Position numbers and translations under genes: made by a program. The notes under the pieces are model-generated. The model did not search any database. It worked only from the letters and a program-made list of their open reading frames with translations, and had not been told where the DNA came from. Of a DNA stretch of 43,147 nt, positions 18,037 to 22,585 are shown piece by piece. This DNA comes from Mycobacterium sp. (lineage in GTDB: Bacteria; Actinomycetota; Actinomycetes; Mycobacteriales; Mycobacteriaceae): the NCBI GenBank assembly GCA_020438905.1, contig JAGQTQ010000004.1, positions 1 through 43,147 of the forward strand. Direction: 5' to 3'. Every line of letters begins with the position of its first letter. Positions within the stretch are counted from its first letter, which is position 1.

Positions 18037-18879
18037 GTGCCCAACCAGACGCCGCCCAACCAGACGCCGCCCAACCAGACGCCGCCGAACCAGACGATGG
18101 CGCGCAAGCTCATGGCTCTGTGTGCCGGAGTGCTCTGCCACGTGTCGTTCGGCATCGCCGTGCTGACCATGATGGCCGCGATGTATTTCGGCATGACCCG
18201 ATCGCTGGGTCGGGTGCTCGAGCCGTGGAACTGGGTTGCCAACGCCGCGCTGCTGGTTCAATTCCCCGTCGTCCACTCGCTGCTGCTCACCGGCAGGGGC
18301 AGAAAGCTGCTCGCCCGGCTCGTGCCGTTGGGCGTCGGTCCGACGCTGTCGGCGACGACCTACGCGACCATCGCGGCCTTCGGGGTCTTCGCCCTGTTCG
18401 CCTTCTGGTCGCCGACCGGGGTGATCCTGTGGCAGGCGCACGGTTCGGTGTTGGTGGTGATGACCGCGCTTTACGCGGCGTCATGGCTGTTACTGGGCAA
18501 GTCGATGATCGACGCCGGGCTATCCCTGCAGACCGGCGCGCTCGGGTGGTTCGCCTTGTTCCGCGGCCGCAGGCCCGTCTATCCGCCCATGCCGGAGAGC
18601 GGCTTGTTCCGGTTGACCCGTCAGCCGATCTATCTGGCTTTCACGATGACCCTCTGGACCGTGCCGACCTGGACCCCCGACCAGCTGGTCGTCGCGGTGA
18701 CCCTGACCGGTTACTGCCTCGTCGCGCCGAGGTTCAAGGAGGCCCGGTTCCGCCGGATCTACGGCCGGGAATTCGACCGCTACGCGGCCGCGGTGCCCTA
18801 CTGGCTCCCCTGGCCGCGGCCCCGTCTCTCGGGTGGGGCCGGGGAGGGGACGTCACCGGCCGGTAAGACGATCCAATGA
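18037..18879 (+). CDS. NnrU/MddA-like membrane methyltransferase-family protein
   Basis: 280 residues with about five or six membrane helices (for example ALCAGVLCHVSFGIAVLTM and TTYATIAAFGVFALFAFW). The C-terminal part has the signature of the isoprenylcysteine-methyltransferase/NnrU group, TRQPIYLAFTMTLWTVP, and then RFKEARFRRIYGREFDRYAAAVPYWLP cut into the usual E...F...Y..Y..VP pattern. Members include methanethiol S-methyltransferase MddA; the substrate here cannot be inferred. The N-terminus is odd: residues 2-20 are a PNQTP repeat encoded by about four 15-bp tandem units. GTG 18037 has AGGAGG 11 nt upstream; ATG 18097, after the repeats, is an alternative. It ends 31 bp before the type III PKS. 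Confidence 0.8.
   Translation: MPNQTPPNQTPPNQTPPNQTMARKLMALCAGVLCHVSFGIAVLTMMAAMYFGMTRSLGRVLEPWNWVANAALLVQFPVVHSLLLTGRGRKLLARLVPLGVGPTLSATTYATIAAFGVFALFAFWSPTGVILWQAHGSVLVVMTALYAASWLLLGKSMIDAGLSLQTGALGWFALFRGRRPVYPPMPESGLFRLTRQPIYLAFTMTLWTVPTWTPDQLVVAVTLTGYCLVAPRFKEARFRRIYGREFDRYAAAVPYWLPWPRPRLSGGAGEGTSPAGKTIQ
18039..18096 (+). repeat. 15-bp tandem repeat inside the membrane methyltransferase start
   Basis: Unit CCCAACCAGACGCCG (Pro-Asn-Gln-Thr-Pro) repeated nearly four times without gaps; the last unit differs by one base (CCGAACCAG) and ends in the ATG at 18097. As 15 is a multiple of 3, copy change would keep frame. Confidence 0.9.
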
Positions 18880-18898
18880 TGTGCGCGTCATGAAAATG

Positions 18899-18904
18899 CA
18901 TACT
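18899..18904 (+). promoter_or_regulatory. -10 box of a probable leaderless type III PKS promoter
   Basis: CATACT, one change from TATACT, ends 6 nt before GTG 18911, the leaderless geometry seen at several other genes in this window. A G-rich GAGGGG lies directly against the GTG and is too close to be a normal SD. No clear -35. Confidence 0.45.
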
Positions 18905-18910
18905 TGAGGG

Positions 18911-20005: not shown

Positions 20006-20511
20006 GCTGGTACACGCTGCTGGTCGCAGCCGTCGCGGGCGAGCGGGTGGTCGAGCTTGTAGTGGCCCGGCGCAACCTCGCATGGAGTCGCGCCCAAGGC
20101 GGCGTGGAGGTCGGCTTCGGGCACTATCCGATGATGGTTCTGCTGCACGCCGGTCTGCTGATCGGATGCGTGGTGGAGGTGTCCGCTCTGGACCGGCCGT
20201 TCCTGCCGTGGCTGGGCTGGCCGATGTTGGCGATCCTGGTTGCCGCTCAGGGCCTCCGGTGGTGGTGTGTGGCCACACTGGGCCGACGGTGGAACACCCG
20301 GGTGATCGTGATCCCCGGCGCGCCCCGGATCACCGCTGGTCCCTACCGGTTCTTCAGCCATCCCAATTACGTCGCCGTGGTCGCCGAGGGCATCGCGCTG
20401 CCGTTGGTCCACACCGCCTGGATCACCGCGTTGCTGTTCACCGTGCTCAACGCGGTCCTGCTCACCACCAGGATCGGCGCCGAAAACGCGGCGTTGGCCA
20501 AGCTCACATGA
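19996..20511 (+). CDS. Isoprenylcysteine carboxyl methyltransferase-family protein (SrsB-like)
   Basis: 171 residues, four or five membrane helices. The family motif lies in GPYRFFSHPNYVAVVAEGIAL, preceded by LGRRWNTRVIVIPG and followed by a C-terminal IGAENAAL; the Arg/His-Pro-Asn-Tyr and Glu positions bind SAM in ICMT. In Streptomyces SrsB, a relative, methylates the alkylresorcinol made by a type III PKS; the same role is inferred here. ATG 19996 overlaps the end of the PKS gene by 10 nt (TTG 20002 is an alternative), and the stop overlaps the next start as ATGA, so translation of the three genes is coupled. Confidence 0.88.
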   Translation: MGLSWYTLLVAAVAGERVVELVVARRNLAWSRAQGGVEVGFGHYPMMVLLHAGLLIGCVVEVSALDRPFLPWLGWPMLAILVAAQGLRWWCVATLGRRWNTRVIVIPGAPRITAGPYRFFSHPNYVAVVAEGIALPLVHTAWITALLFTVLNAVLLTTRIGAENAALAKLT

Positions 20512-21527
20512 CCGACCTCATCGTCGCCGGCGCCGGACCCGCGGGACTGGCCACCGCGACCTACGCGGCCCGGGCCGGGCTGGACACCGTGGTCATCGAC
20601 CGCCGCCGCGGTCCGATCGACAAGGCTTGCGGTGAGGGGCTCATGCCGCACACCGTCGGGCAACTCGAGAAGCTCGGTGTCGGGCTGCACGGCAGGCCGT
20701 TTCGCGGAATCACCTATCTCGACGGCGAGCGCAGCGTCGAGGCCGACTTCCGCTCCGGAAAGGGCATGGGTGTGCGACGCACCGCACTGTCGGAGGCCCT
20801 GCACGACGCCGCTGCCGACGCCGGGGCGGTCATCGTGCGCCGCGATATCGGTCCGGTCAGCCAAGACGCCGAGACGGTGCGCTGCGGCGATCTGAGGGCT
20901 CGGTACCTCGCGGCCGCCGATGGCCTGCACTCGCCGATCCGGCGCTCCCTCGGATTGGACCGGCCGTCCAGGAGTCGGCGGCGCTGGGGAATCCGCCGTC
21001 ATTTCGAGGTTGCCCCGTGGAGCGACACCGTCGAGGTGTACTGGGCGCGGCACACCGAGGCCTATGTCACACCGGTGGCCGACGACTCCGTCGGGGTGGC
21101 CATTCTGACCTCTGCGCAGGGCAGGTTCGACGATCAACTGGCCGAATTCCCGGCACTGGCCGCACGGCTCGCGGCCGCCCCGCACCGCTCGTCGGACCGG
21201 GCGGCCGGACCGCTGCGCCAGCGGGTTAGCAGCCGGACCGCCGGCCGGGTGCTGCTGGTCGGCGACGCGGCCGGCTACGTCGACGCGCTGACCGGCGAGG
21301 GTCTGGGCATCGCCTTCGGCGGCGCCGAAATGCTGGTGGACTGCGTGCTGGCCGACCGGGCCGATGATTATGACCGGCGGTGGCGGCGGATGTCGCGGCG
21401 TTACCGGCTGCTGACCGCCGGGTTGTTACAGGCGAGCGGAGTGGCGCCGGTCCGGTCGATGATCGTTCCGGCGGCCAGCGCCTTGCCGGCCGTATTCGGT
21501 GGCATGGTCAACCTGTTGGCCTACTGA
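20508..21527 (+). CDS. FAD-dependent oxidoreductase (SrsC / geranylgeranyl-reductase type)
   Basis: 339 residues. The dinucleotide-binding motif is at 6-15 ([10 protein letters not shown]), with the acidic end of strand 2 in [16 protein letters not shown] (about 42-49) is typical of geranylgeranyl reductase-like flavoproteins. [16 protein letters not shown] is the second nucleotide motif and [20 protein letters not shown] the GD motif that contacts the FAD ribityl chain. By analogy with SrsC (a hydroxylase making quinones from resorcinols) it probably oxidises the polyketide ring. Reduction of an isoprenoid or acyl chain remains possible. It begins with ATGA overlap and ends 17 bp before pat. 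Confidence 0.88.
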
Positions 21528-21544
21528 GAAGAGCGGCCGGGAGT

Positions 21545-22585
21545 ATGACTGAGGAGAGCGGGCTGAACTCTGCGCTGCAGAGCGGCCCCGAGTTGGTGGC
21601 CCTGCGCGCCGCCGCGCTGGCCGAAATGGGGTTGTTCGAGGGGTGTGCGCCCGAACAGCTGCAGGCGCTGGCCGAGCGGCTGCGTCCGGTGCGAGCCGAG
21701 CCGGGGCAGGTCTTGATGCGACAGGGCGAGCAGGCGGTGTCCTTCGTCCTCATCCACTCCGGATGCGCTGAGGTCAGCCACACCGGCGACGACGGCGCGG
21801 TGGTGCTCGACGAGGTCGGCCCGGGAGCGATCGTGGGCGAGATCGCGTTGTTGCGCGATAAGCCCAGGACCGCCACCGTCACCGCCACCGAGGCGCTGTC
21901 GGGCTACCTAGGTGACAAACGGGCGTTCGCCCTGATGGCCGACCTTCCCGGGGTCAGCGAGGCACTGCTGCGCACGGTCCGGCAGCGACTGGCCGCGTTC
22001 ATCGACCCGATCGAGGTGGCTTTCCGGGACGGCACGGGGCTGTTGCTGCGGCCGGTGTTGCCGGGTGATGGCGAGCGGTCGGCGCACACGCCGGTGGAGT
22101 TCTCCAGTGACACCCTCTACCGGCGTTTCATGTCCACCCGGGCGCCCAGCCCGGCGCTGATGAACTACCTGTTCCAGGTTGATTACGTCGACCACTTCGT
22201 GTGGGTGCTCGTCGACGGGCCGGATGGTCCGGTGGTCGCGGACGTCCGCTTCGTCCGGGACGTCGATGACCCGGCGGTGGCCGAGATCGCCTTCATCGTC
22301 GCCGACGACTACCAAGGCCGTGGCGTGGGCAGCTTCCTCATGGACGCGCTGACCGTGGCGGCTCGGGCCGGGGGCGTGCAGCGGTTCACCGCACGACTGC
22401 TGGCCGACAACCTTCCGATGCGCGCCATCCTCGACAGATTCGGCGCGGAGTGGGAACGCGACGAGCCCGGGGTGGTGACCACCGTTTTCGAGGTCCCGGA
22501 CCTCGATCGGTTGCGCATCGAACCGGCTCTTGCGGACGGTATCCGCGCGATGGCACGCCAAGTAGTGCGGGCGGCGGTCGGGTGA
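21545..22585 (+). CDS. pat: cAMP-dependent protein lysine acetyltransferase Pat
   Basis: 346 residues. The N-terminal cyclic-nucleotide-binding domain (about 25-150) has the phosphate-binding cassette [15 protein letters not shown] (Glu99, Arg108). The C-terminal GNAT domain (about 165-330) has the acetyl-CoA loop QGRGVGS (257-263) and a likely catalytic Glu247 in [12 protein letters not shown]. This fusion is known from M. tuberculosis Rv0998 and M. smegmatis MSMEG_5458: cAMP activates acetylation of lysines in acyl-CoA synthetases and other targets. ATG 21545, with GGGAG just upstream, fits family length. It lies 17 bp after the PKS operon, so read-through from it is plausible; a backbone gene by synteny. 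Confidence 0.95.

Follow-up and report, generated by a model that had tools for sequence, protein, structure and literature searches.

A type III polyketide synthase (PKS) gene, an ICMT-family methyltransferase gene and a flavin adenine dinucleotide (FAD) oxidoreductase gene (the trio) follow one another in a contig of Mycobacterium sp. (JAGQTQ010000004.1, 43,147 nt), and the last of them stops 17 nt (21528-21544) before pat, a gene for a predicted cyclic AMP (cAMP)-regulated acetyltransferase. This whole 43-kb contig is the window; it belongs to a draft genome of 3.69 Mb in 189 contigs that is 84.9% complete. Our reading, to which we give a probability of about 0.6, is that the trio and its neighbours form an srs/pkq-type polyketide-quinone biosynthesis-and-transport locus directly upstream of the pat gene of its clade, and that in a tightly spaced group of genomes the block and pat very probably share a transcript. 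The observed part is gene content, order, spacing, conservation and signature residues. An earlier note, made from the window sequence without database searches, had drawn a similar picture; its observation is confirmed and its interpretation is partly supported. The features concerned are given below (L and G numbers denote loci and genomes).

14988..17231, plus strand: MmpL-family RND transporter, MmpL3-core-like, 747 aa (NCBIfam MmpL3 model and profile match)
17239..17988, minus strand: catechol-O-methyltransferase-like enzyme (COMT-type; PF01596, Methyltransf_3, 57.4 bits)
17989..18036, no strand: gap between the divergent COMT-type and mMT genes, probable promoter region (48 nt; 25-nt core identical in L037)
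18037..18879, plus strand: second membrane methyltransferase (mMT), distantly related to PEMT, ICMT and MddA (either a GTG start followed by 15-nt repeats or an ATG start at 18097)
18911..20005, plus strand: type III PKS, 364 aa (GTG start, TGA stop; Cys150-His289-Asn322; Chal_sti_synt N and C)
19996..20511, plus strand: membrane methyltransferase of the ICMT family, second in the srs/pkq gene order (ATG start, TGA stop; PF04140, 95.5 bits)
20508..21527, plus strand: FAD oxidoreductase of the monooxygenase/geranylgeranyl-reductase superfamily, third gene of the srs/pkq layout (ATG start, TGA stop; FAD_binding_3)
21545..22585, plus strand: pat, with a cyclic-nucleotide-binding domain and a GNAT acetyltransferase domain (ATG start, TGA stop; cNMP_binding and GNAT; NCBIfam Pat)

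The PKS and ICMT genes overlap by 10 nt (19996-20005), the ICMT and flavoprotein genes meet in an ATGA overlap, and the mMT gene stops 31 nt before the PKS start. The earlier note had placed these junctions, the gene positions, the gap before pat and the divergent COMT-like gene exactly to the base, and the intact Cys150-His289-Asn322 that it reported is also unchanged in a second PKS copy in the genome. The best NCBIfam model for the PKS, DpgA, scores 199.6 bits, under its cut-off of 425. The HPNY motif of the ICMT-family protein is invariant in 16 of 16 sequences. The three-gene order, with its quinone role, is the one described for M. smegmatis and Streptomyces in PMC9927152 (papers are cited here for the parts of their text that were available), which bears out the assignment of the trio to the srs/pkq arrangement, as does Streptomyces sp. 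NBC_01237, which matches in one piece, from the PKS into the flavoprotein gene, at 67% DNA identity.

Neighbours were counted in the best 80 of 266 PKS relatives (the named loci), a sample that leans to close relatives. ICMT and FAD genes stand behind the PKS in the same order in 74 of them. Five of the six exceptions (L094, L107, L109, L115 and L116) have the PKS without its two partners and cluster as a single branch in the PKS tree, which was midpoint-rooted and built excluding L108 (in-frame stop within its match); the sixth, L049, is scored as lacking ICMT and FAD, though its available DNA stops at the PKS. The block is not a chance arrangement, since it is found again in dozens of genomes. 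The nearest named relatives of the window genome, both mycobacterial metagenome-assembled genome (MAG) records, are HK-STAS-ACTI-10 (L037; PKS 94% identical) and HKST-UBA35 (L038; 95%), and two of 72,556 plasmid records match (Streptomyces and Nonomuraea). Two MAG records titled Bifidobacterium breve (L046, L047) bear the mycobacterial block, which suggests that they are mislabelled. In G030 (L131:9296-10368, minus strand) the PKS match is split into two pieces that overlap, one at 75% and one at 57% identity, and ICMT and FAD matches follow; that PKS is possibly a broken or mosaic gene.

In the chemistry that we propose, the PKS would extend long-chain acyl-CoA with malonyl- or methylmalonyl-CoA to give an alkylresorcinol-type ring, the ICMT-like enzyme would O-methylate the ring, and the flavoprotein would hydroxylate or oxidise it to a hydroquinone or quinone. 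Family matches of the first and third enzymes count against this scheme. The nearest solved PKS structure is PKS11 (4JAO), which the PDB names as an alpha-pyrone synthesis enzyme, so that the sequence does not tell which kind of ring is made. One tryptophan is termed critical in the available text of PMC9927152. Among NCBIfam models the flavoprotein scores highest with that of the geranylgeranyl-reductase superfamily (127 bits) and reaches 71.9 bits with MenJ, and the geranylgeranyl-lipid reductase structure 3oz2 ranks sixth among its matches (2.8e-07). These matches would suit an isoprenoid-chain reductase of a different pathway, of geranylgeranyl- or menaquinone-reductase type, an identity that the earlier note had raised against its own interpretation. 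We judge it very unlikely: both models fall under their cut-offs (158.8 and 700, respectively), on which grounds MenJ and geranylgeranyl-reductase identities were rejected, the best solved match is the monooxygenase 5kow (8.8e-10), and the gene directly follows the ICMT gene behind the PKS in all but the six loci listed above.

The window Pat scores 512.8 bits with the NCBIfam 'acetyltransferase Pat' model, over the cut-off of 460 and with both domains present. It has near full-length matches to the structures 4AVA (4.1e-124) and 4OLL (1.3e-115), and a 15-residue stretch, whose role we take as known, aligns with 4AVA; by family match it is a cAMP-regulated acetyltransferase. Of the 80 named loci, 30 have pat downstream of the FAD gene and on the same strand (25 of the 59 whose sequence runs on for 4 kb or more past the FAD gene). 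Fourteen of these 30 make up the tight group, in which 5-39 nt, depending on start choice, separate the FAD stop from the pat start, the intergenic sequence is not shared, and the PKS is 71-94% identical to that of the window; MmpL, PKS, ICMT, FAD and pat form a single tight run in L053, L058 and L075. Trio and pat are likely to be co-transcribed in this group. We also surveyed 396 congeneric genomes, evenly sampled, limiting the pat-link count to Pat matches with E<=1e-138 (46 genomes). At least 41 of the 396, the window genome included, have an FAD match upstream of Pat on the same strand within 2.7 kb, and at least 15 of the 41 have at most 57 nt between the two matches; the remaining five of the 46 have Pat and FAD on separate contigs, all in fragmented assemblies. 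The pat link is real and clade-limited in these sequences, and the operon-like junction seen in the earlier note is one that the clade has kept.

Genomes with a more distant Pat give the background. In 20 of 20 such loci (9.9-14 kb examined in each) the trio is absent near pat; the genes behind pat include DUF5642 and AlkB in 18 of the 20 and ArcA in 14. Because these loci are without the trio yet keep DUF5642, AlkB and ArcA behind pat, the simplest reading is that pat has stayed where it normally lies and that it was the lipid block that arrived.

A block that arrived in this way could be a passive neighbour: having settled upstream of pat in an ancestor, it would have stayed there with no functional link, and pat would still be read from a separate promoter, which might lie within the flavoprotein gene. 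We regard this as a real possibility, if short of even odds. The arrangement is confined to the one clade, and 11 loci have MmpL and the trio, with at least 4 kb after FAD, and no pat there. In the other 16 of the 30 pat-linked loci, in the rhodesiae/sphagni group, FAD and pat stand 0.9-2.6 kb apart, and block and pat have both been kept. Five of these long-gap loci were read: a short-chain dehydrogenase (SDR) gene stands behind FAD in L054, L063, L065 and L074 (Pfam-confirmed in L063 alone) and none in L052, and a long opposing open reading frame lies between FAD and pat in L052, L063 and L065 (without a Pfam match in L063). Since an SDR gene, an opposing reading frame or both intervene, a shared transcript is doubtful or broken in these loci. 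Nor do the pat-linked rows form one branch of the PKS tree; they require eight changes, at least seven of them forced by well-supported branches, partly because some contigs end before pat and partly because a pat-free kind of trio nests beside them, and we do not claim a single origin of the join. The long gaps and the tree weigh against our main reading. In its favour, the short spacing and unshared intergenic sequence of the 14 tight loci, over the PKS divergence given above, are more than passive neighbourhood usually leaves.

The transport part of the proposed quinone locus comes from the MmpL gene. In 47 of the 80 named loci it is found no more than 2.6 kb ahead of the PKS and on the same strand (45 of the 75 whose upstream DNA reaches that far), against 30 for pat, which makes it the most frequent extra neighbour tested, and it is present in all 30 pat-linked loci. 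Its profile matches MmpL3 chains (1.3e-125), and two Asp-Tyr pairs, which we take to have a proton-transfer role, are invariant in 18 of 18 homologues. As the MmpL3 trehalose monomycolate exporter it was rejected, with 359.9 bits against the NCBIfam cut-off of 1400; the likeness is to the MmpL3 core. MmpL would move the lipid across or within the membrane and is in our view the probable partner that handles the lipid in this pathway.

MmpL could instead be the exporter of an envelope phenolic lipid (an alkylresorcinol, a methoxylated lipid or a pyrone), and the product not a respiratory quinone at all, which we think rather unlikely. That view draws on the frequency and invariant residue pairs of MmpL and on the pyrone enzyme nearest to the PKS, and it could leave the respiratory role to a second trio in the same genome. 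This second PKS-ICMT-FAD run (G000:C136; L005; L001:971-2769, minus strand) has a PKS 69% identical to that of the window, and its contig of 5.6 kb shows no match to pat or MmpL; it is pat-free because the genome has a single Pat match. In the PKS tree its PKS clusters with nine trios from related MAGs; pat was observed in none of the nine, though five of them have less than 1.7 kb after FAD. Against an envelope lipid, the near-constant retention of the flavoprotein gene behind the PKS points to ring oxidation, and the trios of M. smegmatis and Streptomyces make quinones in the account of PMC9927152. The five-gene block described in the earlier note does recur, but that description leaves out MmpL, the second trio and the long gap before pat in just over half of the linked loci.

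The divergent COMT-type and mMT genes form a METHYLTRANSFERASE pair that separates MmpL from the PKS in the window. A 12-row profile of the COMT-type enzyme matches catechol O-methyltransferase 2zlb (2.4e-46), and D173, K176, D201, N202 and E233, to which we assign metal- and catechol-site roles by assumption, are invariant in 12 of 12 rows and align with the metal/catechol site of 2zlb. An enzyme with these residues fits a hydroxylating flavoprotein, and its place beside a hydroxylase is chemically sensible because the hydroxylase would create neighbouring hydroxyls; it may methylate a neighbouring-diol intermediate expected from the flavoprotein, and mMT may add a further methyl group.

The family assignment of mMT is the weakest among the block genes: it has no Pfam match at E<=0.01, and 13 of 18 homologues have PEMT matches below threshold only. 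Methanethiol S-methyltransferase MddA was rejected as its identity (69.1 bits against the NCBIfam cut-off of 270), as was the single match of its profile to solved structures (0.0066), a protein of a different kind. At its start the gene carries 3.9 in-frame copies of a 15-nt unit (18039-18096; PNQTP), of which the close relative L037 has fewer. A search of 119 genomes (E<=1e-20) found mMT in 11, at most 2.4 kb from a PKS match in at least 10 of these; three of the 11 matches contain a stop, which may come from the match running beyond the gene end.

The pair stands between MmpL and the PKS in the window clade and before MmpL in the rhodesiae/sphagni group. The earlier note had proposed up to three methylation steps, which is plausible in that the extra methyltransferases usually accompany the block, but they are not constant, which counts against our reading: both are absent from the available DNA of four of the 30 pat-linked loci (L052, L053, L058 and L075), the COMT-type gene alone is absent from two more (L071 and L074), and in G044 the mMT and PKS matches are on different contigs, leaving the pair unlinked to the PKS. 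About 1.2 kb separates the G044 pair (L122:5834-11798) from genes for a phage portal and a major head protein, so the pair may be travelling with a prophage.

Because this divergent pair sits between MmpL and the PKS, the likely unit in the window is mMT-PKS-ICMT-FAD-pat, which would be read from the 48-nt divergent region, a probable promoter. No terminator-like site was found on the plus strand in 14800-22800; a terminator before pat, named in the earlier note as the sign of separate transcripts, was rejected on this search, and 17 nt is too short for one. Upstream of the block genes there is no CRP-like site with fewer than three mismatches of 10, the best matches near MmpL, in the divergent region, at the PKS start and at the pat junction having 3, 5, 3 and 4 mismatches. 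The window has 11 CRP-like matches with two mismatches, including one inside the PKS gene (19237), and three such matches (22596, 22613 and 22630) sit in repeats just behind pat. We took no CRP-like match as evidence of control, and CRP control of the block was rejected. The repeats (22586-22651) comprise 3.9 copies of a 17-nt unit and lie between pat and an LpqN-like gene, which converge there.

From this sequence evidence we infer the product, its transport, the common transcript and any link in function to Pat. The hypothesis of regulatory coupling between block and pat has appeal, since low oxygen has been connected in separate work with Pat and with polyketide quinones. In the parts available, polyketide quinones are reported as carriers in hypoxic growth (PMC9927152), M. 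tuberculosis Pat mutants are reported, from work by others, as attenuated in hypoxia (PMC9995111), and the targets of Pat are acyl-AMP ligases that include ten FadD proteins (PMC9995111; table in PMC6640162). With each tied there, the join of block and pat suggests a common low-oxygen programme, to which Pat would contribute inhibition of fatty-acyl ligases. That suggestion is weakened because over half of the linked loci have intervening DNA and no close CRP-like site lies upstream. Its fullest form is a switch on one transcript, in which a quinone carrier is made and positioned while cAMP-gated Pat shuts fatty-acyl ligases and halts fatty-acid burning at low oxygen; we consider this unlikely. 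If it were true, cAMP could also throttle the acyl-CoA supply to the PKS itself as the quinone is made. The earlier note proposed that one transcript could couple the pathway to cAMP through pat, which reverses the direction: if the transcript is shared, it would determine how much Pat is made, and cAMP acts on the Pat protein. For one group of environmental mycobacteria, two low-oxygen traits, a methylated lipid quinone and a brake on fatty-acid use, may be switched on together, and the natural join in the surveyed congeners offers a direct way to ask whether quinones and Pat share one programme.

The order and families of the polyketide-quinone operon are also described in the accessible portions of PMC5916927, PMC8730385 and PMC10896814, and MSMEG_0808 and MSMEG_0809 are named in PMC8730385. 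The trio is already known; among the papers that our literature search reached, none turned up in which it is joined to MmpL and pat. Mycobacterial Pat we take to be Rv0998/MSMEG_5458. That search, with subscription journals outside its coverage, found no paper joining Rv0998 with type III PKS or MSMEG_5458 with polyketide, and none linking polyketide quinone, Pat and hypoxia.

Among known systems, PKS11 (4JAO) is the nearest solved relative of the window PKS and differs in its alpha-pyrone naming; its gene surroundings are presumably of a different kind from the window block. A 2x type III cluster related to PKS11 is described in PMC5916927, as far as its available text goes. Compared with mycobacterial Pat (4AVA, 4OLL), the window pat has the same domains and the same downstream genes as most congeners inspected, and differs in that the lipid block precedes it so closely. 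The srsABC genes of Streptomyces griseus are alike in PKS, methyltransferase and oxidising flavoenzyme, and we know of no MmpL or pat alongside them; accounts of srsABC are given in PMC9927152 and PMC10896814, again in part. The pkqA-C genes of M. smegmatis, compared by description, encode a type III PKS, a methyltransferase and an oxidoreductase in the same order. We take MSMEG_0810 to be part of pkqA-C, and M. smegmatis pat (MSMEG_5458) presumably lies far from MSMEG_0808. In the window, MmpL, the COMT-type and second membrane methyltransferases, and pat are joined to these three.

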